This document shows, one piece after another, positions 1 through 32,531 of a stretch of 64,000 bases of DNA (positions are counted from its first letter, which is position 1; each line of letters starts with the position of its first letter). This DNA is from Cafeteria roenbergensis (taxonomy: Eukaryota; Sar; Bigyra; Bicosoecida; Cafeteriaceae), in contig VLTN01000063.1 of assembly GCA_008330645.1 (NCBI GenBank), positions 1 through 64,000 of the forward strand, read 5' to 3'. The notes beneath the pieces are model-generated. The model did not search any database. It had not been told where the DNA came from and was given only the letters and a program-made list of their open reading frames with translations. The translations under genes and the position numbers were made by a program.

Positions 1-2017
1 GGCCGGCGCACGGGCAGCAGCTTGCAGGTACGCTGGATGGGTGGCTCGTCAGCGGTACGGAGGGAGCGGCTGAACCGGGGCATCAGCCAACACCGACAAG
101 CGGAGGCCAGACGGTCGGCGGAGGTGCGGCTGCCGCCAGCGCGGCGGGGAGCGGCGACCGAGATGACGACGAGCGGCGGCGGCGCAGCGGCAGCTAGTGC
201 GGCTGGCGCTCCAAGCGGCCAAGAGACATCTGATGCCGCACAGCCGAGAGCGGATGCGGCACAGGTCTACTCGGTCAGGCGAACGCCGGCGATCGGGTTG
301 GCCAGGGACGGACCCGACGCGGACGCGGACGGCAACGACCCCAACTGGAAGGGCATCTCGCTCAAGAAACTCGTGAGGAGCTCGCTGAAGCGCTCAGAAC
401 GCAGCGATGCGACCAAGGAGGTGGGCGACATCCTGCTGCGATGCGAGGAGGTCGCCAAAGGGAGCCTACCGGGACTACGAGCGGGACAGCAAGGAGTACA
501 AGGACGCCTGCACCGAGGCACGGTACTTCAGGCCGGACAAGGACTGCGTCGTGGGCAAGGAGGCCGACCTTCATGCCGCCAGGGTGAAGAAGCGCTACCA
601 GCTGGCGCACGTGTGGAGGTCGGACATCGCGGGGGCTGTCGAGGGCCTGGAAGAGCTGCGCGCCGAGATCGAGGAGCTGGCGCTGGAGGCGATGATGGAG
701 CTCAGATCTGACGACGAGTCGTCGGATGACATGGAGGCAACTGCAAACCTGGTGGAGGAGTTCATCAGGGCATGCAAGGGAGCCCGCTGCCTGGCCGCAG
801 CGACAGGGTTCGAGGGCTTCTTGCCCGACACCCTGGGTAAGCTGCCGGGCGAGCTGAAGGCCAAGCTCCGCAAGTTCCGGCTGGCCAAGGCGCGCAGGGC
901 CTGCACAGCACGCTGCAGGGGCCGAGGCGCTGGCCAAGGGCACGACGGAGAAAGCGTGTCGCCAACATCGATGACCCGCCATGTTCCGCGTCATGAGCGA
1001 CCTGGTCGCGTTCCGGGAGGCATGCGTGCCGGGGAACACACTACTGGCTCCGCAACACGATGATGGGACCCCGCGGGCTCACGGACGAGGAGTTTGCGGT
1101 GGTGGAACGCTACCGCATCGGAGCCTCCGAGGCCGACCACGTGGTGCCGGACGGCGTGTCGATCAACTGCGCGTGCATGCAGCGAGACACCACGCGAGAG
1201 GCACCGTCCACATCGGCGGGGTCTCCGGCGTGGCACACCACCTGGCGCGCTGCCGCTGCGGCAAGGGCTCCACCATCCGGGCGCACAACGACGTCGCGAC
1301 GTCCTGCACGCGGCGGTGCGCTCGGCGGGGCTGCAGTCGGTGGTGGAGCCCTCCAGCTGGCAGGACGGTCAGGCGCGCTTCGGGTCCCAGCCGGGGCTCC
1401 AGCGAGGCCGCGCGCAAGCGACCGGACCTGCGGGTGCACGTCGACTTCGAGACCACCCGTCTCGTCGACGTGCAGATCACCTCGGCGGTGAGCAAGTCCT
1501 ACGTGACGCAGGGCCTGCAGAACATGGACGCCTTTCTCGAGCGCCGTGAGAATGACAAGATGAGGGAGTACAAGAAGAGCTCAGCTACAAAGGACAACAT
1601 GAGCTCCATTGTGCCCTTCGTCATCACGACCACGGGACGCATGGGACCGGCGGCCTTCGCCTTCCTCAAGAAGGTGGCGGACACGGCCTTCGGCGACCGG
1701 CCGAGGGAGCGTGCGCGCTGGGCCTTCCGCTGGCTGTCGAGGCTGAACGAGGTCATCGCCAAGGGACTGGCGACCCAGCTGATCGGGCAGACGCAGTACC
1801 TGCGACAGCAGGTGGAGCGTTTGCGGCGAGCAGGGGCGGCTGAGTGGCGACTCGAGGCAGTGTGATGGGAGTGATCTGGGCTTGGGACTTGGGATTGTGG
1901 GTTTGGCGCGGTTTGTGACTCATTGGTGATGGAGTTGCTGGATTGGTGATTGGTGAGTCTGTGAATCGAGTGTGTGGTATGGTTACGCGAGTTTTCGACC
2001 CCCCCCAACGATGTTCA
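1..2017 (+). mobile_element. RLE-type LINE, copy 1 (5' cut by window edge)
   Basis: This is the 3' part of a non-LTR retrotransposon. Its first base matches position 3497 of the complete-ended neighbour, and the two copies stay almost identical to their shared 3' end, ACCCCCCCAACGATGTTCA. It covers the Ala/Gly-rich linker, a basic helical region and the C-terminal endonuclease domain, with CRCG then HND (about 1250-1290) and RPD...DVQI (about 1425-1475). That spacing fits the restriction-like endonuclease of early-branching LINEs (R2, NeSL and relatives). Compared with copy 2 it lacks about 120 bp after position 875 and has one base fewer near 1296, so its frame is broken. There is no poly(A) tail. 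The reverse transcriptase part lies outside the window or is missing. Confidence 0.85.
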
Positions 2018-5000
2018 CCAGCTGCGCTTCCAGTTCCTGGGCTGCCGAGACGGGTCGTGCAGGCTGGTCCATGCTGTCCGCACCGCGTTCGAGGAGGGAG
2101 GAGCCAAAACGGTGGTGGTAGCGTTGGACATGGCCAACGCCTACAACTCCGTCTCCAGACGCGCGATGATCGAGGAGGTGCGGCGGTTGGACGAGAAGCT
2201 CGTGCCGGCGGTGCTGGCGCTGTACGGCTCGTCCAGCCCGCTCCTCTTTGCCACGGACGAGGGCGAGGTCTTTGAGCTGGAGTCCAACAGGGGCGTGCGT
2301 CAAGGCGACCCGGCAGCGGGCGCACTGTTTGCGATCGCAGTGCACCCCCTGGTGGACGAGGTGAGGCGCGCCTTCCCAGATGTGCTCATCTTGCAGATGG
2401 CCGACGACACGACGCTGGTGGGCCCGAGGAGGAGCGCCTTCAAGGCAGCCCAGATGCTGGCCGAGCGGCTCAGCACGGTGGGGCTGCGGATGAACACCAG
2501 CAAGACCCAGGTGCTGTGCAAGCGAGGACAGCGCGAGGAAACGAAGGCCAGAATTCGGCGGGAGATGAAGCGGAGTAGGGACGAGCCAGGGTCCCCACCC
2601 TCGGTGCTGGAGGGGTGCCACCTCACCGAACGGAGCGTGGCGGTGCTGCAGTGTCCTGTGGGGGAGGACCTCTCACCGGAGGTGGCTCTAGAGCAGTCGA
2701 TGAAGCGACTAGAGAAGGAGTTCGGGCCGGCGGCGGAGCGCCTGCTCGCGGGCATCGAGGTCTGCGGGCTCAAGCGGGCGCACCACCTGCTGCTGTCGGT
2801 GGTGGGCCAGAAGTTCAGCTACCTGCACAGAGCAGCGGGTGCGGCGGCGGGCCAGGAGCTGGCGGTGTTCCATGCGGCGCTGCTGGCCAACCTGTCGGCA
2901 GTAGCGCACAAGACGGAGCTGGATGCGATCGGCCACGCGCTCTCGGACGAGATGTGCACGGTGACCGAGGACGACTTCCGTGAGGCCATGTCCAAGGCCA
3001 TCGAGGCGCTTGTTCGGGGGCTGCCGGACGAGCACGCAAGGCGGGAGGCGTGGTGGGCGCTCCTGGGCCGGGAAGCCGACGGTGTGACTCGGCTCGCATC
3101 GGCAGCGTCCAACCCGGCCTTGAAGAAGGGAGGCTACGCTCAGATGAGGCTGGCAAAGATGCTGAGCAAGGGCTGCAAAGCCGGTGGCATGGGCCTGCCT
3201 GGCGTGGCGCAGTTCCGCTTCGAGGCGACAGCGGGCTTCATCGAGGCCGTTCGGGACATGCGGAAAGGGCGGTTCGAGATGGCGCCACCGCCGGAGGAGG
3301 CCCTCGACGGACCCGGCACTGGTGGAGGCGGAGGCGAAGCGGCGTCGGGCAGTGGTGCCGGAGCGGGACCAGCCAACGCCGGCGAGGCGGAAGCGGAGGA
3401 TGAGTCAGGTGCGGCGGCTGCTGCAGCGGGCGGCACGCCGTGGGTGGACCACCCGGCGGTCGGAGAGAGCGAGTCCAAGGAGGACTGCGAGGAGGGGCCG
3501 GCGCACGGGCAGCAGCTTGCAGGTACGCTGGATGGGTGGCTCGTCAGCGGTACGGAGGGAGCGGCTGAACCGGGGCATCAGCCAACACCGACAAGCGGAG
3601 GCCAGACGGTCGGCGGAGGTGCGGCTGCCGCCAGCGCGGCGGGAGCGGCGACCGAGATGACGACGAGCGGCGGCGGCGCAGCGGCAGCTAGTGCGGCTGG
3701 CGCTCCAAGCGGCCAAGAGACATCTGATGCCGCACAGCCGAGAGCGGATGCGGCACAGGTCTACTCGGTCAGGCGAACGCCGGCGATCGGGTTGGCCAGG
3801 GACGGACCCGACGCGGACGCGGACGGCAACGACCCCAACTGGAAGGGCATCTCGCTCAAGAAACTCGTGATGCGGGCGCTGAAGCGCTCAGACCGCAGCG
3901 ATGCGACCAAGGAGGTGGGCGACATCCTGCTGCGATGCGAGGAGGTCGCCAAGGGAGCCTACCGGGACTACGAGCGGGACAGCAAGGAGTACAAGGACGC
4001 CTGCACCGAGGCACGGTACTTCAGGCCGGACAAGGACTGCGTCGTGGGCAAGGATGCCGACCTTCATGCCGCCAGGGTGAAGAAGCGCTACCAGCTGGCG
4101 CACGTGTGGAGGTCGGACATCGCGGGGGCTGTCGAGGGCCTGGAAGAGCTGCGCGCCGAGATCGAGGAGCTGGCGCTGGAGGCGATGATGGAGCTCGGAT
4201 CTCACGACGAGTCGTCGGATGACATGGAGGCAGCGGCAAACCTGGTGGAGGAGTTCATCAGGGCATGCAAGGGAGCCCGCTGCCTGGCCGCAGCGACAGG
4301 GTTCGAGGGCTTCTTGCCCGACACCCTGGGTAAGCTGCCGGGCGAGCTGAAGGCCAAGCTCCGCAAGTGCCTGTACGGCGACGGGGTGACGGCGCGGGCG
4401 AACGAGCAGACCGAGGCGCCCTGGCAACGCAAGATGGTGCTGCACCACGATGACATGCTGCGCATCAAGCACGAGTGTGTCTTCCTGCGCCGTTTGGCCA
4501 AGGCGCGCAGGGCCTGCACAGCACGCTGCAGGGCCGAGGCGCTGGCTAAGGGCACGACGGAGAAGCGTGTCGCCAACATCGATGACCCGGCCATGTTCCG
4601 CGTCATGAGCGACCTGGTCGCGTTCCGAGAGGCATGCGTGCCGGGAACACACTACTGGCTCCGCAACACGATGATGGGACCCCGCGGGCTCACGGACGAG
4701 GAGTTCGCGGTGGTCACCCGCTACCGCATCGGAGCCTCCGAGGCCGACCACGTGGTGCCAGACGGAGTGTCGATCAACTGCGCGTGCGTGCAGGTGGACA
4801 CCACGGCGAGAGGCACCGTCCACATCGGCGGGGGTCTCCGGCGTGGCACACCACCTGGCGCGTTGCCGCTGCGGCAAGGGCTCCACCATCCGGGCGCACA
4901 ACGACGTCCGCGACGTCCTGCACGCGGCGGTGCGCTCGGCGGGGCTGCAGTCGGTGGTGGAGCCCTCCAGCTGGCAGGACGGGCAGACGCGCTTCGGGTC

Positions 5001-5442
5001 CCAGCCGGGGTCCAGCGAGGCCGCGCGCAAGCGACCGGACCTGCGGGTGCACGTCGACTTCGAGACCACCTGTCTCGTCGACGTGCAGATCACCTCGGCG
5101 GTGAGCAAGTCCTACGTGACGCAGGGCCTGCAGAGCATGGACGCCTTTCTCGAGCGCCGTGAGAATGACAAGATGAGGGAGTACAAGAAGAGCTCAGCTA
5201 CAAAGGACAACATGAGCTCCATTGTGCCCTTCGTCATCACGACCACGGGACGCATGGGACCGGCGGCCTTCGCCTTCCTCAAGAAGGTGGCGGACACGGC
5301 CTTTGGCGACCGGCCGAGGGAGCGTGCGCGCTGGGCCTTCCGCTGGCTGTCGAGGCTGAACGAGGTCATCGCCAAGGGACTGGCGACCCAGCTGATCGGG
5401 CAGACGCAGTACCTGCGACAGCAGGTGGAGCGTTTGCGGTGA
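2018..5442 (+). pseudogene. LINE reverse transcriptase - restriction-like endonuclease polyprotein (broken)
   Basis: Reverse transcriptase motifs are plain: ALDMANAYNS (motif A, about 2122-2151), NRGVRQGDP (B, about 2285-2311), MADDTTLVG (C, catalytic DD, about 2396-2422) and GLRMNTSKTQVLC (D). A low-complexity Gly/Ala/Glu linker follows (about 3300-3690), then a conserved helical region. The endonuclease part has HHLARCRCGKG, HND and RPDLRV...DVQI, the pattern of a zinc knuckle plus a PD-(D/E)XK nuclease. The frame is open to about 4830. There a run of five G (four in copy 1) shifts it, and the endonuclease continues in another frame to the stop at 5442. The N-terminal part is missing, so this copy should not be autonomous. 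Confidence 0.85.
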
Positions 5443-19542: not shown

Positions 19543-22500
19543 TCACACGCGCAGCGCGTGCCCTCGTGCCCGCGGGCCAGCGTTGCTGAGCGCGGCCAGT
19601 CGCTCCACTGCTCCCTCGCGCTCTTGCTCGGCGGCCGCGCGCTCCAGGGCAGCGGCCCGGCGCAAGGAGGCAAGCACGGCCCCAGTGCCAGCGGTTCCGC
19701 GCGCGTCCAGCCCGGGCATGCCGTCCGTGTCCACAGGCATGCCCGCAAGCGAAGCTTGCAGCGCATGACCTGGCCCCGCGTCCGCCGCTGCAACGCCAGC
19801 AGAGGCACCACCTCTTGCTCCGCCGCCCGTTCCGGCAGCAGCGGGAACAGCATCAGCAGCGTCCTCGGCGCCTTGGCGGCTGGCGCCCGCTGGGCCAGCA
19901 CCAGCGGGCCGCGCACCCCCCGTGCTGCGCTGCTCGCTCCGACTCGCAAAGCGCACCGCAGGCGGCGCCCCAGCGGCCGCGTCGCGGGCCTCCCGCACAC
20001 CCACGCCGTCGGCCACGCCTCCGGCCGGCGACGGGCCGTGGCCCCCCCGGGCAGGCTTGCCCCCCCTCGCGCGGACTGCGCGCGCCACGTCCGCGGCCCG
20101 TCGGGAGTCCTCCGGGTCGCGCTCCCCAGCGGGGATGGCTGCGAGCCTCTCTCGCTGCCGCAGCGCCGGGGACTTGACGTTCGCGGCAGGCGCCACGGCG
20201 GCTGCGACCCGTCCCAGGAACGCCCCCCCACCGCCCGCAAGCAGGTCGCTCTTCTTGGCCACGAGGCCACGCGGATCGCCCCCGGCTGCCTTGGCGCCTG
20301 AGCGCTCCGCCGCCCTCGCCGCCGCTGCGCGAGCCTGCCACCCGACCGCCGGCAGCGTCAGCACCGCATCGAGACCCTTCCCACGCGGGCTGGCCGGCCG
20401 CTCGCTGCTCTCCAGGAGGGCCGCGCCGCCCTGCGCCGTCGGCCGCCCAGCCGAGGCCGCCATCGCGGCTGCCCCCAGGGCCGCCACGTCTGATGCGCCC
20501 GCGCGCCTCGCCTCCGCCGCCTCTGCCGCGTCGCTCAGCGTGTACAAGCTCGTGGCGTGCGAGCCGTGCAGAACGGCCAGCTGCGCGGACCGCGCCTGGC
20601 CCGTGCGGCCGCCGCTGGACGCCCCCGCCGCCGCCCACGGGGGAGCAACCCCGTACGCTGCGTGCGCCGCGCGGCTTGCCGAGGGGTCGGGCGCAAACCG
20701 AAGCGGGTCCAGCGGCCGGCTCCGGCGGGCAGCTCGTCTCGCGCCTCCAGCGGGGCGCCGCTTGGGGCCGCCACCACCGGCATCGTCCCGAGCAGCGGCA
20801 GCGGCAGCAGCAGCATTTGCAGCGGCCTCACCGGGGCCGGCTGTCGCGCCCGCAACAGGACGGGCGCCAGTGCGCTTGGCCGCAGCCGCCGCGCGCCGCT
20901 GCCGCGCGGCTGCTGTCCGCCGCTGCTGGTACCCCGCGATCGGAGCCGTGTTCCGCACGATGCCAGGCGCCAGTGCCGCCCCGCCGTGGGCACTTATGCC
21001 TCCTGACTTGTGCGCGCCGCCCCCGCCCCTCCCACCCGCGCCGCCGGCAGCGGAGGCTGCGCTGAGGCCGCCCCGGCTGCCGCCGCCACCCACTTCGTCC
21101 ACCCAAGACTCTGCCACAAAGGGCAGCGATCGACCAAGCGACTGGTCCTCGGTGAGGGCGTGGGCGGGCGGGCGCCCCTCCATCGCGCGCTCCTCCGCCT
21201 CCCGCCGGCGCCGCGTCTCGCGCCGCTCCTGCCGGCGGCGGATCCCGTCTCCCCGGCCAGACAGGTGAGGCGCGCTGTCCTTCCAAGAGGATCCCATCTC
21301 CGACACCCGAGCAGTCGTCTCGGCGCTGGCCCGCGCGTAGGGGGCCGCCGGCAGGGCGCTCTGCCACGGGCGCCCGAGGGCGGCCGCGCTCCGGACCATG
21401 GACAGCTCTGCCGACAGGCCGCCAGCGTCGCTTGCAGAGGCAGCCGGCTCTGCCGCTTTCAGCAAACGCAGCGCCGCGCTGCCGTCCGAGGCCCCGCCTC
21501 TGGGCAGCGCCGCGCCCACCCCGCCGGCCACAGCAGAGGGGTCAGACCCGATGCGGCCGCCGCCGCCGCCGCCCTCCCCGGCACCGTCCGCGGCGGCCGC
21601 GGGAACGACCGCATCTGTGGCCGGCTCGGCGCCGCATTGGTCGCCAATGGCATCCAGACCGCCAGCGCCGCCTTCGTCGCTGTCGTCATCGCCGCCCTCC
21701 GCCTCGACGGCCCCGCCGTCATCGTCGTCCTTGGCGTCGTCATCCTCCGCCTGGGCCGGCGGAGCGCTGGCCGGAGAGCTCCCCATCGCCCCGCTGCCTG
21801 GTGCCTTCTCAGTCGTGCCGCCGCGGTTTTGCTGGTGCGCTTGAAGCTCCCGAGGTGTCGCATTGGCAGAACCGACCGCGACGCTGAGCGACCGACGATC
21901 GCTGCTCCGCCTCCGCAGCAGCCTCGACTCGGCCGAACGATCATCCGACGGGCGCCCACCCGCCGCCGAGGCGAGCCCTCCATCTGGGAAGCCCCGCGAC
22001 GCCCCCTGAGGCGCCGAGGCCACCGCCCTCCTGCTCGCCTGGGCGCTCTGCCGGTCCTGCTGAATCCCGCCATCGCTGCCCCAGCCGTCGCTCGCGCCGC
22101 TCATGAACCCTCCCGCCCCAGCGCCGCGAAGGCCAGACGCCTCGGCGCCTGCTGCGTCCGCCACCAGGCCCCCTGGCTCGCTGGACCCGGGCTCCAGAGC
22201 TGCCCGGGCGCGGGGAAGCGGCTCCAGGCCCGGCAGAGCCGGCAGGCTCGCTGCGTGCAGAGCCGCCGCCGACGCCGTGGAGGCCGCCAGCGCCCCAAGG
22301 CTCCTGATCGATCGGCCAAGCGACGGGCTCTGCAGCGCGCTCTGCAGCGCGCGGCCTTGCCTGTCCAGCTTGCGGCGTCGCTCCGACTCTTCCACGTCCC
22401 GCCTCGCCTCGGCGCGCTCCCTCTGGCGGTTTCGCGCCTGCATCATGGTCTTGGCGTGCGACTTACGGGCGCCCTGCTGTCGGCGACGGGCGTCAGCGGC

Positions 22501-25500
22501 GGCGCGGTTCCGCTTCTCGAGTGCGTCCCGCTGCGCGTTGGCGGCCGCCGCCTCGGCCTGCTCCCGGGCACGGCGGCGCACAGCGGCCTTCCTGGCAGCC
22601 GCCTCCCTGCGCCGCTGGGCGCCTGTCCGGCTCGCCTTGGCTGTGGCCTTGGCAACAACCTCCGGGTCAGTCGCAGCGTCGAACGCCGCAATCATGGTTG
22701 CCACTCGCCGCGACATCGCGGCTGCGCCCGCAGCAGAGGCGGTGACCGGGCGGGACGGCGAGGCGCTCTCCGGCGTCGCGCCGTCAGCCTCACTGCCATC
22801 CCCAGATGCGCTTCGACCCCGCGGCCCCGCGCCGACTGCACGCCCTCGCGACCCGGATCGGGATCGGCCGTCAGCCGACCCCGCCACCGACCCGCTTCCC
22901 AGGCCGCCGACGCTCCCACCGTCCCGGTCCGGATCCGACTCGCGGCCCTGCCCCTCGTCGGCCGCGCCCCAGTCGCTGTCGTCGCTGTCGCTCTTCCCCC
23001 CGTCCGCGTCCCAGTCGCTGCTGTTCCCGGCGGTATCGGCTCTGTCGGCAGAGCCACCGGGGCTCGTGCCAGCGCGGACGGCGACCGAAATGCGATCGCT
23101 GCCGCCCTGAGGCGACGCCCCCACGCTGGAAGCTTGGAGCTGGCCGTGACTGCGGCTGCGGCCGCGGCTCCGGGTGCGGCTGAGGCTCCGGCTGAGGCTC
23201 CGGCTGAGGCTGCGGCTGCGGCTGCGGGACCGGTCTGGCCTGTCTTCGGCAGCAGAGGCTGCCGCGGCTGGCGAAGCCGCGCTCGATGGCGGGACGTCGC
23301 CGCTGCTGTCCAGCAGCAGGCGCCTGGAGGCCCCGCCGCTGCGGCCGCTCGCAGCGCCGCCTCGTCGGCCAGCCGCGGACTTGCTCGCTCCCCTCGCGGG
23401 CGACGAGGCTGGCGTTCTGCGCGCCGACCCTGCGAGGGGGTCCTTGCCCGTGGAACGCTTCTGAAACCGCGAAAGGCGTTTGAGCGACATTTTCGCGGAC
23501 GGCGGTGAGCGGAGACCCGGGCTCTTGCTCCTCGCGCCTGGGCCGCTCGCGGCCGCCGGACCCTTCTCCTCCTCCCTCAGCAGCGCCTCGGCCCTGTCCA
23601 TCGCGGCCTTGGCCTTGAAAATGCCGTCTGGCAGCGGCTGGGGCAGTGCTGACGACGGTGCGCCGGCGCGGCGGCCGCGCGAGGCCGTCGCCGAAGTGCC
23701 CTCCAGCGCCGCGCTCTGGCCGCCGGTCGTGGAAGCTCCGGGCGTGGTAGGGGCCGCGATGACGGACCCTTCCGGCTTGGAGGCGTCGCCGCGCATGTGG
23801 CGCGGCACCGGCCCCAGGGCGGCAAGCGGCGAGGCGATGAACGGCCGGAGCGCGTCGCTCCTGCTGCCAGCGCGACTCCCCCCGTGGGCGGCGCGCGGGG
23901 CGGCGGCAGCGCCCGCTGCGGCAGCGTCCTCCCGGGCCGCCGTGGCCTCGGCCTCCTCCGGGGTGAGACCGGCCCGAATCAGCGTGTCCACGCGCTCGAG
24001 CCTGGCCTGCTCCTTGGCCGCCGCTGCCAGCTCTGCCGAGCGGCGCACGACGGCCTTGGCGGCGTCGATGACGTTCGGGTCCACGACTCCGCTGCGCAGC
24101 TTGACGGGGCCCCCTGGCCGCGCGGCGCCGCTGCGGGCGGTGCTGCGGCGGCTTGTGGATGCGCGGGAGGACGGGCGGCCGAGGCTGCTAGCCGCCCAGT
24201 CGAGGCCAGGCGGGCGCCTGCCAGGGGTGCCGGCCGCCACGGGCGACCTGGGGGGGGACGGCGGCAGGTCGAAGGTCACGGTTCCGGAGGGCGAAGCCAG
24301 AGGCTGCCGCTGGGCGCGCGCCAGCAGCCGGTCCGGTGAGAGCCCGAGGGCTTCAGGGGCGCCGCCCCCAGCGGCGGGAGCGGGCGCTGTGAGGGCCCCG
24401 CTGCCGCGTGCATCGTCCCCGCCTGCACCGCGATTGCTCCCGGCGGGAGAGGCGCTGTTGACGTCTGTGCCGGGCCCGGGTCCGGCGGCCGGCGCAATGC
24501 CTCTGCTCGGCGGGTCGCGCAGGACGCCGTCAGCTGACCGCAGCCCCCTGCTCGGCGGGCCGCTGCCCGCCTCCGCAAACTGCACGCTGAAGCGGCCGGG
24601 CGTCCTCGGCTTGGGGCTGGACAGCGCGCTGCGCGCGAAGCCCCCGTCGACGCTGTCATCGGCCCAGAAGGCGCCCGCACCGAAGCTGCCTGGGGTGCGG
24701 GCGCGCGTGGGGCTGGAGAGCACGGAGGCGGCCATTCGAGCCCCCCTGTCGCCGCCCCGTGCGCGGTGCAGCGCGGCCCTGATCGGGTCCGATGTGCCCT
24801 TGAGGGGGCCGCGGGCGTTCCACAGGGCTTGCATGCCCGCGGCGGCGGCGACGGGAACCCCCGACCCGGCCCGCTGGTGCCGCATCACGAAGCCATCGGC
24901 CGTGCCGTCGAGCGGCGCGGTGGCCACGGGCGCGAAGCCGAGGCGCTCGGCGGGCGTGATGGGCCCGTACTCCTCCCGCGGCCGCCGCAGGCCGAGCCAC
25001 TCCCATGCCTGGTCCGACCGCTGCCGCACGCGCTCCGCCAGCCGGCGCGCTAGGTAGCCCCGCACGCACCGCTGGATGACGCGCGCTGCGGGCTTGAGCG
25101 TGGCTAGCATCCGCTGGAACGCCCGCATCGCCATGAACGTCCTCCACATGGCCTGGATGCGGCGAACGGCCTCCAGCGACCGTGCCAGCTCCGCCATGGC
25201 CGGCTTCACGGCCTCGTCGAGCAGTGCGGCCTTCTCGCTCAGGCGGATGAACCACCGCCCGATCTTGGCACGGGCCCAGTTGCGAACGCGGCGGAGCTTG
25301 GCGACGCGGCGCCTCGCCCGCCACCCCCGGTAGAGCCGCTGCAGCACCAGGGCGAGGCGCAGCTCGCGCGCCCGCTCCTGCCGCTTCGCCTGCCGGATCA
25401 CGTCCAGCCTGGCTGCGGTCTGCGCTCGCGACGCCGCCACAAGCCCCAGCAGCCGAGACCGCACCACCCGCAGCCACACCCACTCGCAAATCGTTCGCAG

Positions 25501-27882
25501 CGCCCACCTGTACCGCGCGTGCGCTCGCGCCCGCACCCGCCAGGCCAGCGCCTGGATCGTAAAGGCTGCCCGCTGGCGGCGAAGGTAGTCCTCCCGCGCC
25601 GCCAGCAGGCTCTGCCGGGCAAGCCAGACGCGCTGGATCAGCCTGGCGGCCAGGTCGCGCTGGCGCCGGAAGACCATCACTCTCAGCAGAGCGGTGCGCA
25701 GCCGGCTCGCGTAGCCTCGCCAGACGCGCTGGATGTCCACGGCGGCCCGGTGGCCGCGGCGCCACTGCGACCAGGGCTGCACCACCACGCGGCGGATCAG
25801 TGACTTGGCGGTGACAGGGCCGGCCTTTCTCTGCGCCGACGCCGCCCTGGCAGCGGCCATCGCCCTCGCCGCCGCCCGGGGGCTCACACCGTCCCCCACC
25901 TCCACCCCCTCGAGGGAGCCGAGGTCAATGCCAGTGGGGTCGTCTGGCGCGCTCGAGGCCCTGCGCCGGCCGCTGCCGCTGCGAGGCACACGCTGCTCCG
26001 CCCCAGCCGGAGGCGGCCCGGCCTCCAGCTGCCCGTCCGGCAGCATCACCCGGTAACGGCCCTCCTCGTCCACAACCAGCACGCCCAGCTGCTCGGGAGA
26101 CGCCGCACCGGGGGCAATTCCAAGCATGGCCAGCGCGCGCTCCCGGACGCCCAGCACGAAGGGGGCCCGCGACAGAGTCTGCACGTCCCCGCGGTGCGCT
26201 GACGGCGCCGCGGCGCCCTCGAACGCTCGCGCGGCCGCTGCCAGCGCCGCTGCCCCGCCAAGGCCGGGCTCGCCTTCGTCACCGCCGCCGCCCGCACCGC
26301 CGTCCCCACTGCCGCCCGCACCGCCGCCTTCACGGCCGCCTTCACGGCCGCTGCCACTTCGCCCAGCGGCAGAGCTGGCGCCAGCGCCAGCGCCAGCGCC
26401 ATCCGTCAGGGCCGGAAGCCGAACTGGCGCCAGCGGCAGCGGGCGGGATTGCATCGACGGCAGAGCCGCCAGCTCCGACGAGCGACGCGTCCGGTGAGCG
26501 GCAGAGCCCACGGCCGCCGCGCCGGCCCCCGCCGCGGAGCCCCCTGCCCCCGCCAGCACAGCCGCCGCCCGCGCCCGCGCGGCGGCCATGTCCGCGTCGT
26601 GCTCCGCGGTCTTGCGGCGCGCCTCTGCGAGCTCCCTGCGCGCGTGCAGCGTGGCGATGACGTCATCCGTGGTGGGCCCCCTGGGCCGGGGCTCTGGCAG
26701 TTCCCCGCGCAGCCGCTGCAGCGTGCGGGGGTGCCAGGCGGCACGCTCCTCGGGCAGGGAGTCCTTGGCTTTGGCGCGAAACCGCGCAAAGTCCTCCTCC
26801 ACCGCAGTGGTGGCGCGAGCGGCGCTCGCAGGCCCGCCGGCAGCCGCTGCCTTCCCGGCCCTGGGAGCGGCGGCGCTGGCCGTATCCGACGCCCGACTTG
26901 CCCCCCCGGCGCCCTTCCGTGAGGCGGTCTCGGAGGCATCTCCCGCCCTGGACGACGGCCTTCGCCTCCCCTGCGCTGACTTGAGCGGCAGCGTCCACGG
27001 CAGCGACGGCGCCATCGGCCCCCGCTTCGCCTCCCCCATGCGCCGCCGCTCAGCCGCCTCCGCCGCTTCCAAGCCCCGCGGGCCCAGCGCCGCCAGCTGC
27101 TCCCCGCGCCGCGCCGCCGCCACTGCGCGGGCCCTCGACCCCGCCGGCCTGCCCGAGGCGTCCACGGCGAAGCGCTTGTCTCCTTTCCACCGGAGGGTGC
27201 CGTCCAGCTCTGCCCTGGCGAGCAGAGCCTTGATGTCAAGCAGACTGACCTCTCGCGCCGCCAGAGCCCGCAGGTCGGCGAGCAGAAGGGCCTTCACCTC
27301 GGAGGTGGTGGCCTCCCGCAGCCGGCGGGTGGGGCGCAGCTCCAGGGCGTGAACAGGGTCCCGCCCGCGGCGCCGCCGCGCGAGCACGGCCCGGCTCTCA
27401 GCCACGGCCGGCACAGTCCCGTCGGCGTCGCGCCGCCTCCGCAGCGCAGGCGGGATCTCGTCGCGGTGCCTGCCCGCGCCCTTGGCGCTCCTGCTCGAGC
27501 GCCGGCTGGCCCTGCTGCCCTGGCTGCCGGCGCTGTCCGTGTCGCTCTCCGAGTCGGGAATTGGCTCGCCAGCAAGCACTCCGTGCCTCGCCGGCTCGCT
27601 GTACTGCCCGCCCAGCCCGCCGGTCTCGTCGTACAGCACGACGACGCCCTTGTCGCGCCTGTCCCGCTCCATCTTCTGTCGCAGCGCCGTGTCGGCCGCG
27701 TGCTTCATCTCCGCCTCATCGAGCTCGGCCAAGTCCTTGCCTGCCAGCGCGCTGGAGAGGTGCGCGTGCACGGATGAACGCCCCACGGAAGACTGTCGGC
27801 TGTCCCTCCGCGAGGACCTGGCCCGGGTGGCACCCCAACTGACGCTGTTCCGCGACGAGGCGCGGGCGAGTGCGTCCGACAT
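19543..27882 (-). CDS. Giant multi-IQ-motif, mostly disordered protein, 2779 aa, single exon
   Basis: One uninterrupted frame of 2780 codons from ATG 27882 (MSDALARASSRNSVSWG); the frame upstream lacks another ATG. At residues about 700-960 lies an alpha-helical block with at least six IQ-like motifs (IQRVWRGYASR, IQRVWLARQS, LQRLYRGWRARRR, IQAMWRTFMAMR, IQRCVRGYLARR and a weaker IQALAWRVRAR), which should bind calmodulin or similar EF-hand light chains. The rest is rich in Ser, Ala, Gly, Arg and Pro and looks disordered. It includes an SR-dipeptide run near residue 1550 and Lys/Arg/Glu-rich helices around 1750-1850. No motor, kinase or calponin domain was seen, so a cytoskeletal or ciliary scaffold is only a guess. 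The length and lack of introns are unusual beside the intron-bearing neighbours. Confidence 0.8.
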   Translation of the reverse strand: MSDALARASSRNSVSWGATRARSSRRDSRQSSVGRSSVHAHLSSALAGKDLAELDEAEMKHAADTALRQKMERDRRDKGVVVLYDETGGLGGQYSEPARHGVLAGEPIPDSESDTDSAGSQGSRASRRSSRSAKGAGRHRDEIPPALRRRRDADGTVPAVAESRAVLARRRRGRDPVHALELRPTRRLREATTSEVKALLLADLRALAAREVSLLDIKALLARAELDGTLRWKGDKRFAVDASGRPAGSRARAVAAARRGEQLAALGPRGLEAAEAAERRRMGEAKRGPMAPSLPWTLPLKSAQGRRRPSSRAGDASETASRKGAGGASRASDTASAAAPRAGKAAAAGGPASAARATTAVEEDFARFRAKAKDSLPEERAAWHPRTLQRLRGELPEPRPRGPTTDDVIATLHARRELAEARRKTAEHDADMAAARARAAAVLAGAGGSAAGAGAAAVGSAAHRTRRSSELAALPSMQSRPLPLAPVRLPALTDGAGAGAGASSAAGRSGSGREGGREGGGAGGSGDGGAGGGGDEGEPGLGGAAALAAAARAFEGAAAPSAHRGDVQTLSRAPFVLGVRERALAMLGIAPGAASPEQLGVLVVDEEGRYRVMLPDGQLEAGPPPAGAEQRVPRSGSGRRRASSAPDDPTGIDLGSLEGVEVGDGVSPRAAARAMAAARAASAQRKAGPVTAKSLIRRVVVQPWSQWRRGHRAAVDIQRVWRGYASRLRTALLRVMVFRRQRDLAARLIQRVWLARQSLLAAREDYLRRQRAAFTIQALAWRVRARAHARYRWALRTICEWVWLRVVRSRLLGLVAASRAQTAARLDVIRQAKRQERARELRLALVLQRLYRGWRARRRVAKLRRVRNWARAKIGRWFIRLSEKAALLDEAVKPAMAELARSLEAVRRIQAMWRTFMAMRAFQRMLATLKPAARVIQRCVRGYLARRLAERVRQRSDQAWEWLGLRRPREEYGPITPAERLGFAPVATAPLDGTADGFVMRHQRAGSGVPVAAAAGMQALWNARGPLKGTSDPIRAALHRARGGDRGARMAASVLSSPTRARTPGSFGAGAFWADDSVDGGFARSALSSPKPRTPGRFSVQFAEAGSGPPSRGLRSADGVLRDPPSRGIAPAAGPGPGTDVNSASPAGSNRGAGGDDARGSGALTAPAPAAGGGAPEALGLSPDRLLARAQRQPLASPSGTVTFDLPPSPPRSPVAAGTPGRRPPGLDWAASSLGRPSSRASTSRRSTARSGAARPGGPVKLRSGVVDPNVIDAAKAVVRRSAELAAAAKEQARLERVDTLIRAGLTPEEAEATAAREDAAAAGAAAAPRAAHGGSRAGSRSDALRPFIASPLAALGPVPRHMRGDASKPEGSVIAAPTTPGASTTGGQSAALEGTSATASRGRRAGAPSSALPQPLPDGIFKAKAAMDRAEALLREEEKGPAAASGPGARSKSPGLRSPPSAKMSLKRLSRFQKRSTGKDPLAGSARRTPASSPARGASKSAAGRRGGAASGRSGGASRRLLLDSSGDVPPSSAASPAAAASAAEDRPDRSRSRSRSLSRSLSRSLSRTRSRGRSRSHGQLQASSVGASPQGGSDRISVAVRAGTSPGGSADRADTAGNSSDWDADGGKSDSDDSDWGAADEGQGRESDPDRDGGSVGGLGSGSVAGSADGRSRSGSRGRAVGAGPRGRSASGDGSEADGATPESASPSRPVTASAAGAAAMSRRVATMIAAFDAATDPEVVAKATAKASRTGAQRRREAAARKAAVRRRAREQAEAAAANAQRDALEKRNRAAADARRRQQGARKSHAKTMMQARNRQRERAEARRDVEESERRRKLDRQGRALQSALQSPSLGRSIRSLGALAASTASAAALHAASLPALPGLEPLPRARAALEPGSSEPGGLVADAAGAEASGLRGAGAGGFMSGASDGWGSDGGIQQDRQSAQASRRAVASAPQGASRGFPDGGLASAAGGRPSDDRSAESRLLRRRSSDRRSLSVAVGSANATPRELQAHQQNRGGTTEKAPGSGAMGSSPASAPPAQAEDDDAKDDDDGGAVEAEGGDDDSDEGGAGGLDAIGDQCGAEPATDAVVPAAAADGAGEGGGGGGRIGSDPSAVAGGVGAALPRGGASDGSAALRLLKAAEPAASASDAGGLSAELSMVRSAAALGRPWQSALPAAPYARASAETTARVSEMGSSWKDSAPHLSGRGDGIRRRQERRETRRRREAEERAMEGRPPAHALTEDQSLGRSLPFVAESWVDEVGGGGSRGGLSAASAAGGAGGRGGGGAHKSGGISAHGGAALAPGIVRNTAPIAGYQQRRTAAARQRRAAAAAKRTGARPVAGATAGPGEAAANAAAAAAAARDDAGGGGPKRRPAGGARRAARRSRPLDPLRFAPDPSASRAAHAAYGVAPPWAAAGASSGGRTGQARSAQLAVLHGSHATSLYTLSDAAEAAEARRAGASDVAALGAAAMAASAGRPTAQGGAALLESSERPASPRGKGLDAVLTLPAVGWQARAAAARAAERSGAKAAGGDPRGLVAKKSDLLAGGGGAFLGRVAAAVAPAANVKSPALRQRERLAAIPAGERDPEDSRRAADVARAVRARGGKPARGGHGPSPAGGVADGVGVREARDAAAGAPPAVRFASRSEQRSTGGARPAGAGPAGASRQGAEDAADAVPAAAGTGGGARGGASAGVAAADAGPGHALQASLAGMPVDTDGMPGLDARGTAGTGAVLASLRRAAALERAAAEQEREGAVERLAALSNAGPRARGHALRV

Positions 27883-28696
27883 GCTGCCTGGCCAGGCTTC
27901 GACAACTCTCTGCCCTCGCCCAGCTCGCGATCCCGACGGGCCCAGGCGGTCAACAACCAGATCCCTTGCACTGAGGCGGGATGGGCGCGCGCACGCGCGG
28001 AATGGGGGAGGCGGGGGGTGCCGGGCTTGCCTCGCGGCGCTGGCCAAGCGGCCAAATTGCGAGTAGTTTTCGCCAAGCGGCCTCCCGGCGCCGGAACCGA
28101 GCGAGAGAGCACAGGCGCCGGCCGCCAAGCCCTTCGCTCGCGGCGGCGACGGGCTTTCACCCCGCGCACACGTGCGTTGGTGCCGTGCCGTTTGGTGGTT
28201 GCGGCGAGCCGTGCAGAGCTCAACGTTCCGCGTCACAGCCCCTTGCGACGGCACCGCTGACCAAGGCACACTGCAGCGACTGAATCGCGGCCGTGCGGAG
28301 CGGTGCTGCTCGCGCGTTCGAGGCGGTGGGCGGGGGGTGCGCTGTCAGCTCAGTCATTGGAGCGGAACAGGCAAGCATCGCACACACGCGGACCCACAAA
28401 CTCAGAGCTCCCCCTCCCTGGCCGGGCGGGAGCGGGTTCCAGCTGTCGCGCACACGCCTTGTCCAGTCCGCTTGTCCACACGCCACGCACACGACGGCTG
28501 CATGCCCCTTCTTGAGGCCACTCGCGACGTGTTGCAGTGCCGTGCGAGGGGCACGCCGCAAAGGGCGGTGTCCCGCAGTCCTCTCCCCCCACCGCCCCCC
28601 CCCGCCCACACACACACGCCTCCACCCCCGTGTCCTCCCCCTCCTTCACGTCGGACCCTCCCCTCGCCATCTCTCGGCCGGGCTGATGCTGCTGCC
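27883..28696. other. Intergenic stretch between the IQ-protein start and the SpoVS-like stop
   Basis: About 810 bp, containing the upstream region of the IQ protein and the 3' flank of the SpoVS-like gene. There are homopolymer C runs and a short CA repeat near 28600-28620. No coding frame with recognisable motifs and no RNA gene were found. Confidence 0.4.
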
Positions 28697-29988
28697 TCAC
28701 GCCTTCCGGGCGATGACGGCCAGCCGCAGCGCGGTGCGCTCCACGCTCTCGCCGTCAACGGTCATAGGCACCACAGTCTTCTCCGGCACCATGGACACGG
28801 TGATACCCTCCTCCTCCACGTAGAGCGACGCGAAGGCCACGGCCTTGACCATGGCGAGCACGGCGTTGGCGCCGATGCCCACGCAGCAGAGGGGCTCCGC
28901 CTCAGTGCCCTTGCCCTCGCGGGCGTTGCTGGCCAGCGCGCCGCCGAGCTTGGCCGCCTGCGTGGAGGACCCCACCTTGAAAGCGGACTCAGTGCCCTCG
29001 GGCAGCGCGACGCGGGTGGCGCGGCGCGTGACGAACATGTCGACGGCGTTGACTCCTACGTCCCGGTTGGTGCGGGCGGTCACCTCCACGTCGGCGCCGC
29101 TCTCCTCCAGGTAGAAGCGTGCGGACACAATCCCCTTGACGGCCTGGTTGACAGCCGCCGCGCCGATGGCGGACACGGTGCACTTGCCGGTGGCGCGGAT
29201 GGTGTGCGCGATGGCGCCGGCCAGCTTGGGGACCGGAGTCGCGCCGCCCACGCGCACAACGCCGTCAGAGCGGGGCTCGGCATCCGCAGCATCTGCGCCA
29301 GACGGAAACAGGCGCGGACGGGGCACGCCGGGGGAAGTCGAGGGGGCGACCGGGAGTCGCGCGCGAAGCGGTGGCATCGGCGACCCCGCAGCGGGCAGCG
29401 CGATCCCGGCAGAATCTACGACAAGCGCCGCGAGGCAAGCCGCACTACCGCGGAGCGGGGCAGCCTCCCACCCACAAGCACGCCAACGGAAACGCGACGC
29501 CCGCACGATGGAGAGGGCGGCCGCAAGCGACGCTGGGGAGGCAAGGCGGCCCGAGCAGGGCTGCATGCGGGCCGTCGCATCAAGTTGCATCCGCACGCCG
29601 GCTGACGAGCGCGAGCGCGGCATGCGCCCCTCGGCGCCAGAGCGTTGCGGGAGCAACTAGCCACGCAATGCCGCAAGCGCAGCCGCCTGGAACTGCGACT
29701 GCACCCGCCACGGCAAGCATCGCCCAGCCGCCAGCGACGGCAGGCGCAGGCCGGTGCGACACAGCGCACAGCAGGCAAACGGAAGGCGCTTCCCGGGCCA
29801 GCGGGCTCACCCTTGGGGCGCGACGCGCCGGGGGCGCGGCGACGCCCGCGCCCAGCAGCGGCGGGGCCGGCCGGGGCGCCCTCGGCACGTGGTGCAGCGT
29901 CCTTGCGCGAGCGCCGCGGGGCGCGCTCCTGGCGGCGCTCGCCGGTCTTGGCGCCAGCGACAGGGGCAGCGGTCGATGCGTCGGCCAT
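28697..29988 (-). CDS. Tandem SpoVS (Alba-superfamily) domain protein, 257 aa, two exons
   Basis: Exons are 29811-29988 and 28697-29292. The intron (518 nt, GTGAGC...GCGCAG) joins in phase. The first 60 residues are basic, Ala/Arg/Gly/Pro-rich and probably disordered. Two copies of the SpoVS domain follow. The first has VPKLAGAIAHTIRATGK, AIGAAAVNQAVKGI and SARFYLEESGADV; the second has AAKLGGALASNAREGK, IGANAVLAMVKAVAFAS and the family's C-terminal VDGE..ERTALRLAV. In Bacillus SpoVS a single domain acts in sporulation control, and the fold is of the Alba nucleic-acid-binding type. RNA or DNA binding here is inferred from the fold and the basic tail. The gene shares a 195 bp upstream region with the divergent alpha-galactosidase. 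Confidence 0.88.
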
Positions 29989-30183
29989 GGCGAGGACTCG
30001 GGTGCCGAAAACGGGCGGTCGGGGTGTGTGGCGGCCCTCAGCTGCGGATTGGCTGCCGACTCCGGACATCCAAAGTCGCCCTGGCATCCGCGCCCGCTTG
30101 GTCGATCGCCGCTCGCGTGCTGCCGACGCCCGGCTCTGTGCGCGAGCTCAGCCGCCCGGCAGCGCGCCCGCGCACCGGCAAGC
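29989..30183. promoter_or_regulatory. Shared upstream region of a divergent gene pair
   Basis: 195 bp separate the start codons of the SpoVS-like protein (minus) and the alpha-galactosidase (plus), so promoter and 5' leader sequences of both must lie here or inside the genes. It is GC-rich, with no TATA box visible. Confidence 0.5.
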
Positions 30184-32531
30184 ATGAAGAGCGGCGCGGC
30201 GCTCGTGCTCGCCCTCGCGGCGGGCGCCACGGCGTACAACAACGGCCTGGGCACCGTGCCCCCGTTGGGTTGGAGCTCGGTGAGCAGCCGGCTGCGGCGC
30301 AGCTTCAACTCGCGACGCGTATCGCCCGACCCAAACGCGCCCCACAGGGCCGCAGTCGCCCCGCTTCTGGCATGGCGGTGCCGGTAGCCGGCCCGGGCCG
30401 CTCACGGTCGGGAGCAGGAAAGGATTTGGCGCCCACAGGCCCAGACGTCGGGGCTCGCCGGCGGAGAACCCTCGTCCCACGGCAGCCTCGCTTGCTCGCG
30501 GCCGCGACTCCTTTCCCGGCCCCTCCTGCGCAGTGGTGTGTGCAAGACGTGACGTGCGGCCTGGTGGACACGTGCACGGAGAGCGAGATTCACAGCGTCG
30601 TGGACGCAATGGTGCTACAGCAGATGCCCGGCCTCGGCTACAAGTACGTCTTCCTCGACGACTGTGAGAGCCGACGCCGCCGAAAACTTGTGGCGGCTGG
30701 CAGGGCACATGAGCGCCCTTGTCCGCGGCGCGCGGAATTTGTGCCCACGCGGGGCAGTGGTCGCCGCGGACGCAAGCCGGACACTGGCGCCCGGCAGGCC
30801 CGCAGAGCGCCTGCTGAGCGCCCGCTCAGCGCCCGCAGAGTGCCTGCTGGGTGCTTGGCCATCACGCGCGCCGGTCGATCGCTCGCATGCCCCGCCCGAG
30901 CCGCGCCGCAGGCTGGGCGTCGACCGAGCGGGACGCCAACGGAAACATCCAGCCCGACGCCTCCCAGTTCCCCTCGGGCATCCCCTCCCTCCGGGAGTAC
31001 GTTGACAAGGCCGAGATGGAGCTCGGCCTCTACACCTGCGCCGGTGAGCCAGCCGGGACCAAGCCGCGCCTGCCCGCTCCAGGGCCCGCCGTCGCCTTCC
31101 GCCAGCCTGTGACCGAGGAAAAACGCAGGAGGGAGAAGGAGGAGGAGAGGGGGGGGGGCTACCGCAGCAGTCGCGCGAGCATCACCGGCCTGGCGCCGGT
31201 TCGCCTGCCCCGCCCCACCCCTCGCGCGCTCGCTCTCTGCGGCCCACCCCTCGCGCGCTCGCTCTCTGCGGCCCACCCCGGCGCGCCTCGCAGGCCCCAC
31301 CACCTGCCGCTGGAATCGCACCGGCTCCGGCGGCCACTACGTCGCGGACGCCCTCACATTTGCCAAGTGGCAGATTGACTTTGTCAAGGCGGACAACTGT
31401 CACCACCCGCACGAGCCCCCCCCCGTGTACTACGGGAACCTCAGCCACGCGCTGAACATCAGCGGCAGGGCTATGAGCTTCAACCTCTGCGAGTGGGGCG
31501 AGGACGCCGTGTGGACCTGGGGCACCAGCATTGCGCAGGTGAGCCGCTCGCCCGGAGCGCTGCGTGCAGCCAGCGCGCCGACGGCAATCCCTCCCCCCCC
31601 GCTTCCCATCATCACCACCACATCAACAACAACAACAACATAATTGTCACGCGTGCACGCGCGCGCGCTCGCTGCTGCAACCCGCCGCTGCTGACCCCTG
31701 CCCGCCCCTCCCGATACAATCTCCCCCCCCCGTGCGCAGTCGTTCCGCGTGGGCCCGGACCACCTCCCCGTGTGGTCCTTCCCCGCGCTGCAGCAGGAGC
31801 GCCGCCTCTGGCAGAGCCAGCTGGAGGGCCTGCCCGTGTCGGCGCTGCAGGCGGCGCACCCCTCCCTCTCCGCCCGCGACCTGGCCGCGGAGGAGGCCAA
31901 GCGGGCGGAGCGGCTGGCCTGGGACGCGCGCATGCGCGCTGCCGGGCGCAAGGGGGGCCTCTCGGCCTCGCTCGCCTCCCTGGAGCGCCGGTACGCGGCG
32001 GGCCTCGGCCAGGGCACCTCCGACATCATCGAGCACATGGCCGTGGTGGCCAACTCCACGTCGGCGTACGGCAAGGCGGACCCGGACTTTGCGGAGACGA
32101 TGCTGTGGTTCCTCACGCCGTTCACCGACTCCCAGACCGAGTGGTCGTTCTGGTGCCTGTGGGGCGGGAACCTCCTCATGGCCACCGACACCCGGTGGAT
32201 GTCGGCTGAGAAGTCCTCCATCGTGCTCAACGCCGAAGCCATCAACGTCCACCAGGACCCCACTGCGCCCCCGGGCTCGCGCCGCTCCATCGCGGCCAAC
32301 AAGGTGCAGCTCTGGGCGCGGGACATGTCAAACAGCGACGTCACCGTGATCCTGTTCAACCCCACTGAGACGAACCAGACGGCCGCCATGCAGTGGTCCG
32401 ACGTCGGCATCAGCGGCACTCCGGCGGCGGTGCGGGACCTGTGGCAGCACGCCAACCTGCAGCCAAACATGGCCGGCTTCGCGCGGGAGCTCGAGCCGCA
32501 CCAGGTGGCGATGCTGCGCCTGTCGCGCTAG
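30184..32531 (+). CDS. Secreted GH27 alpha-galactosidase-like glycosidase, 464 aa, five exons
   Basis: Exons are 30184-30279, 30534-30663, 30912-31043, 31294-31538 and 31740-32531, all introns GTGAG...GCAG. A signal peptide (MKSGAALVLALAAGATAY) precedes NNGLGTVPPLGWSSWC, the hallmark start of GH27. Next come VFLDDCW, ERDANGNIQPDASQFPSGI, LGLYTCAG, and DFVKADNC with the nucleophile at about Asp153. The acid/base segment appears to be KADPDFAETM (about 313-322). The stretch between the two active-site parts has a charged helical insertion (about residues 215-300) absent from usual family members. The C-terminal beta domain has VILFNPTETNQTAAMQW. It should release terminal alpha-galactose, or a related sugar, from glycans outside the cell or in a vacuole or lysosome. 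Confidence 0.87.

Follow-up and report, generated by a model that had tools for sequence, protein, structure and literature searches.

A tandem SpoVS gene with complementary motif losses in Cafeteria roenbergensis and its putative role as a fused pseudo-dimer

The first 64,000 nucleotides of contig VLTN01000063.1 of the Cafeteria roenbergensis assembly GCA_008330645.1 (here called the window) carry, at 28697-29988 on the minus strand, a gene whose 257-residue product contains two copies of SpoVS (stage V sporulation protein S), an Alba-fold domain that is best known from spore-forming bacteria, is widespread in bacteria generally, and for which we found no established molecular function. The two copies share one reading frame, and each lacks one of the two stretches that mark bacterial members of the family. 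Our leading explanation, which as a whole we hold at about even chances, is that 28697-29988 functions as a nuclear gene in a heterotrophic stramenopile, that it descends from an anciently acquired bacterial SpoVS, and that its product is a fused pseudo-dimer binding RNA or, less likely, DNA.

Two SpoVS domains in a probably spliced gene

The features on which the argument rests are as follows.

28697-29988, minus strand: tandem SpoVS gene from ATG to stop codon, 257 amino acids encoded in two exons (exon join with translation, and Pfam)
29811-29988, minus strand: exon 1, encoding a basic, low-complexity N-terminal tail (start context TCGCCATGGCC)
29293-29810, minus strand: predicted intron of 518 bases, phase 1 (donor GTGAGC, acceptor CTGTTTCCGTCTGGCGCAG; from sequence only)
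28697-29292, minus strand: exon 2, carrying both SpoVS domains (joined-frame translation)
29021-29260, minus strand: SpoVS domain 1 (Pfam stretch 29081-29260; Pfam and predicted fold), AVNQAVK present, ERTA end absent
28715-28981, minus strand: SpoVS domain 2 (extent of the Pfam stretch; Pfam and predicted fold), GESVERTALRL present, NQ absent (NAVLAMVK)

An earlier note on this DNA had proposed two SpoVS copies behind a basic N-terminus, and a profile search bears this out. Pfam SpoVS (PF04232; profile length 83, curated cut-off 24 bits) gives 98.5 bits for the spliced protein and 92.8 bits (E 1.1e-26) for the exon 2 open frame. Taken singly, domain 1 scores 61.5 bits over profile positions 2-61 of 83 and domain 2 scores 48.8 bits over positions 3-82, both above the cut-off; two such matches are far outside chance. 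The Alba profile (PF01918) gave no match to the protein at E up to 1, and an NCBIfam search assigned it to no family. The tandem model made from alignment A4 rendered domain 2 well and the end of domain 1 not, so domain 1 was folded separately, giving beta-alpha-beta-alpha-beta-beta with the last hairpin complete; a complete SpoVS fold is thus predicted for both domains. In both models, each built with SpoVS rows in the alignment (cut back in A4 to the domain's first two thirds), solved SpoVS structures outscore Alba-type chains by 4 to 5 Z units. The identification as SpoVS rather than eukaryotic Alba stands on these profile and structure results, which led us to reject an ordinary Alba identity.

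The gene would start at the ATG at 29988 and end with the stop codon at 28699-28697. The first 75 residues of the protein are strongly basic (pI 11.6), and the tail they form is presumably disordered and arginine-rich. The intron ends read GTGAGC...GGCGCAG, the split codon joins in phase 1, and GTGAG occurs once in the 518 bases, as the donor. These signals resemble those of three introns in the neighboring alpha-galactosidase gene (donors GTGAGC, GTGAGA, and GTGAGC; acceptors TGCGCAG, GCCGCAG, and CTCGCAG), although those introns, at 248-254 bases, are half as long. Exon 2 has a GC content by codon position of 0.69/0.53/0.91. To score synonymous codon use, we trained on four Pfam-supported frames of the window (2,144 codons) and compared the results with 2,000 random windows. 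Exon 2 reaches +60.9 and exon 1 reaches +4.4, whereas the two remaining frames of exon 1 fall to -11.3 and -12.6 and the random windows average -34.8. The exon 1 value is matched by 6.7% of the random windows, which is moderate support, while an unspliced alternative starting at 29377 scores -5.6 and is matched by 21.6%. We therefore treat the spliced eukaryotic gene of the earlier note as supported at the sequence level by splice signals, phase, and codon score; the two-exon model is favored over the start at 29377, and the intron would be removed in RNA.

The genomic setting speaks to the origin of the DNA itself. The three alpha-galactosidase introns were placed by eye and then tested against Pfam, where the joined product gives an uninterrupted PF16499 match of 115.7 bits (profile 2-167), as opposed to 34.5 bits for one exon alone; the introns are homology-supported for this reason. 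Other neighbors in the window are protein kinases (one with EF hands), API5, and a frame with AlaDh_PNT_N and saccharopine dehydrogenase domains. The earlier note had named contamination as a possible refutation; the SpoVS gene is linked to intron-bearing eukaryotic genes, and bacterial contamination, being unlikely in such company, was rejected.

Complementary losses and a second, more diverged tandem gene

Domain 1 has kept AVNQAVK and is missing the ERTA end; domain 2 has kept ERTALRL (within GESVERTALRL) and is missing NQ (GANAVLAMVKA). Neither stretch formally defines the family: GAxAVNQAVKA is customary among its members, and GExxRTAxxL is customary among the bacterial ones. That a GExxERTALRL-type end persists in the second copy and is lost from the first had been noted before and holds; the NQ loss of domain 2 is an addition, as the earlier note named the ERTA end alone. 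For comparison we assembled 47 distinct relatives from our scans (34 bacterial, 13 phage), leaving out short rows, two-hit frames, and rows that duplicated others across residues 11-70. The NQ of the AVNQAVK motif is present in all 34 bacterial and all 13 phage rows, and [RK]T at the position of the ERTA end occurs in 33 of the 34 bacterial rows and 1 of the 13 phage rows. In a second set of 26 profile-found domains, high-scoring matches from two bacterial phyla, both features occur in 26/26. None of these 73 relatives shares the NQ loss of domain 2. The end of domain 1 resembles phage-type SpoVS members, and its best bacterial match, a Caldilineaceae protein (locus L010; 43% over residues 3-81), is likewise without the ERTA end.

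In the genome (36,303,456 bases in 167 contigs searched) we found one further SpoVS gene, and it too is tandem. It lies on contig C71 at about 139281-140455 (3282-4456 of locus L005), carries a pair of SpoVS stretches (25.2 and 25.8 bits) within a single frame, and reads as having one 5' phase-1 intron. Its product matches the window protein colinearly (27% over 177 residues); the C71 pair is much more diverged than the window pair, and both hallmark motifs are gone. The N-terminus is strongly amphipathic, arginine-rich, and free of acidic residues (moment 0.97, matched by 1.6% of shuffles), which makes it mitochondrial-looking. A gene that by eye resembles electron-transfer flavoprotein beta sits next to the C71 gene in head-to-head orientation.

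Putative nucleic-acid binding and the readings weighed against it

Proteins of the Alba fold bind RNA or DNA and mostly do so as dimers. By analogy, the window protein probably binds RNA or DNA, and a covalent pseudo-dimer doing so is our best reading of it. A SpoVS domain of bacterial origin would have been acquired long ago, and two fused copies would now pack together as an intramolecular pseudo-dimer in the manner of separate Alba-fold subunits. This pseudo-dimer would have RNA as its ligand (DNA being less likely), would act in the nucleus or cytosol, and would gain unspecific grip from the basic tail. We propose that fusion relaxed the need for every motif in each half and that, because of this, domain 1 could keep the AVNQAVK helix motif and domain 2 the ERTALRL last strand. 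The nucleic-acid complexes 3WBM, 3U6Y, and 3IAB are among the structure matches of the domain models, and a basic tail joined to a fused pair is compatible with a self-contained pseudo-dimer. Further hints come from bacteria: YmdB, whose function lies in nucleotide or RNA turnover, is one of nine neighbor frames tested (one each from 9 of 12 listed loci), and together with a cross-link model that pairs SpoVS with YunD, described below, it gives no more than a hint at such turnover. At the bacterial locus in question (L016), the SpoVS frame (1483-1755) is immediately preceded by the YmdB frame (405-1460), an arrangement that may bear on the role of SpoVS.

Several points weigh against this explanation. 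Structure prediction of the two-domain unit, which the earlier note had suggested, delivered complete folds for both halves and left their packing unsettled, as the relative placement of the domains in the tandem model is not fixed (pTM 0.49); the SpoVS rows in the model alignments may also bias the result toward SpoVS-like structures. The role of bacterial SpoVS was not established in 2011, according to a passage of one paper from that year (PMC3141063). The 47-row set was found mostly via patterns spanning the NQ motif, which biases its NQ count. The ERTA end is absent from 12 of the 13 phage rows, so that its absence from domain 1 is, taken alone, weak evidence for specialization; of the specialization of the two halves suggested earlier, the complementarity of the losses stands, while the ERTA loss carries little weight alone and the hairpin of domain 1 is predicted to be complete. 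Each window domain is nearer to its best bacterial rows (alignment scores 149 and 130) than to the other (85), which makes two acquisitions possible; two separate events, or one followed by fast divergence, could each have produced the pair. Finally, domain 1 (pI 9.6, net charge +3) and domain 2 (pI 5.4, net charge -1) both fall within the net-charge range of the 34 bacterial rows (-3 to +6), so charge alone marks no binding half.

A DNA-side role, in which a nuclear chromatin or transcription protein uses its tail and Alba fold to coat DNA as archaeal Alba does, is unlikely. The fold and the basic tail suit DNA binding as well as RNA binding, and Rigden and Galperin reportedly predicted in 2008 that SpoVS is a DNA-binding regulator. 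However, the sequence gives no preference for DNA over RNA, and the placement of SpoVS beside YmdB (in L016, one of the nine neighbor frames) leans toward nucleotide or RNA turnover.

It is quite improbable that translation begins at 29377 (MPPLRARLPVAPSTSP...) on an unspliced transcript and that the two-domain protein goes to the mitochondrion, like its C71 paralogue. An in-frame ATG does exist there, the resulting 28-residue extension is without acidic residues, and the paralogue has the amphipathic, arginine-rich N-terminus described above. Yet the extension has a poorer codon score than exon 1, no amphipathicity shows in the first 20 residues of the extension (0.36, matched by 79% of shuffles), and a phase-matched donor and acceptor would become a coincidence.

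Also very doubtful is an adaptor role, in which the SpoVS pair mainly binds another protein and has no direct dealings with nucleic acids. Among the best structure matches is PDB 9A7H, presumably of B. subtilis origin, which by its title alone ("Integrative model of YUND-SP5S by crosslinking MS") suggests a protein partner, and a literature search for YunD found no paper on it. The basic tail, which would be typical of nucleic-acid binders, argues against such a role. The chance that an ordinary eukaryotic Alba protein (Rpp20/Rpp25 type) was mistaken for SpoVS, or that the DNA is a bacterial contaminant, is next to negligible, as the shared overall fold is outweighed by the missing Pfam Alba match, the 4 to 5 Z advantage of SpoVS, and the linkage to intron-bearing eukaryotic genes.

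The fused pseudo-dimer explanation invites a broader conjecture, which we regard as a long shot: fused SpoVS pairs may replace Alba/Rpp20-Rpp25 proteins in Cafeteria, with one pair for the nucleus or cytosol and another, evolving fast, for the mitochondrion. A six-frame search of the genome found no match to Alba (PF01918) or Rpp20 (PF12328) at E 0.001, in a search where introns or divergence could hide such genes and where the positive controls came from archaea only.

Origin, surroundings, and comparison with known systems

In the bacterial and phage relatives listed, each frame holds a single SpoVS domain, and the window gene departs from this by having both of its domains within one exon. 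A two-domain frame was seen in 0/40 bacterial loci and 0/19 viral loci (15 contigs) of our scans; one locus (L038) has a second, separate frame at its end. In a survey with the PF04232 profile, matches occurred in 167/400 genomes of Chloroflexota (the phylum of L010), in 16/386 of Candidatus Tanganyikabacteria (that of L012, which we take to belong to the cyanobacterial side), and in 136/149 of Bacillota (that of L027). No frame was shared by two matches in the one complete phylum list (41 matches) or, for the other two phyla, among the matches listed. A giant-virus or phage origin was rejected, the viral scans having yielded one-domain relatives only, with none found for domain 2 or the C71 protein; phage records gave 5 weak partial matches and plasmid records 1.

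The phylogeny called for in the earlier note was run against bacterial and phage rows (93 columns, tried twice), and it left the eukaryotic SpoVS domains without placement. End branches measure 2.2 to 3.3 for the window domains and 10 for the C71 domains, and forcing the window domains into one clade was neither rejected nor supported (p-AU 0.217). In one of these trees, eleven phage SpoVS rows (L007, L009, L051, L053-L055, L058-L060, L062, and L063) form one group with support 99/100.

Upstream, the gene faces the alpha-galactosidase gene across a short spacer that is a probable two-way promoter.

29989-30183, no strand: spacer of 195 bases between the divergent SpoVS and alpha-galactosidase genes (the latter with its ATG at 30184, plus strand); putative promoter

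Just downstream lies a 2,933-codon open frame (19546-28344, minus strand) rich in Ser, Arg, and Ala, in which an IQ motif is the only Pfam match at E 0.01. Elsewhere in the window, a 1,065-codon open frame (1965-5159, plus strand) contains a reverse transcriptase domain (RVT_1) and is probably a retroelement. Scans of the window for Rfam families (gathering level) and for tRNAs came up empty, and a search of the genome gave no match to light-harvesting (LHC) proteins.

SpoVS in a eukaryote is not in itself new. A SpoVS gene is named as a linkage marker in the green alga Gonium pectorale (scaffold 10, under Chlamydomonas chromosome 6), and the likeness to ours, a eukaryotic gene so named, lies in a marker name in one table alone of a paper on the Gonium mating locus (PMC4856071). 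A survey of Alba proteins treats SpoVS, in the passage concerned, as bacterial (PMC11621453). Literature searches found no paper on tandem or stramenopile SpoVS among the matches listed, nor did they bring up a published case of the fused, complementary, two-gene arrangement. The present gene documents SpoVS in a eukaryotic group beyond the green alga in print, with a likely division between nucleus or cytosol and mitochondrion, and the fused asymmetric pair offers a way to ask which hallmark stretch serves binding and which serves the dimer.

Set beside bacterial SpoVS (PF04232; 2EH1 and 2EK0 from Thermus thermophilus), the window protein agrees in profile match and complete predicted fold, in the AVNQAVK motif of domain 1, and in the ERTALRL end of domain 2. 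It differs in having two fused copies, each without one of the two hallmark stretches, and in its basic tail, probable intron, and eukaryotic host. In its putative way of working it would be closest to Pop6-Pop7 and Rpp20-Rpp25, the Alba-fold heterodimer of RNase P/MRP (3IAB, 6CWX, and 6LT7), in which two non-identical Alba-fold units act jointly on RNA.
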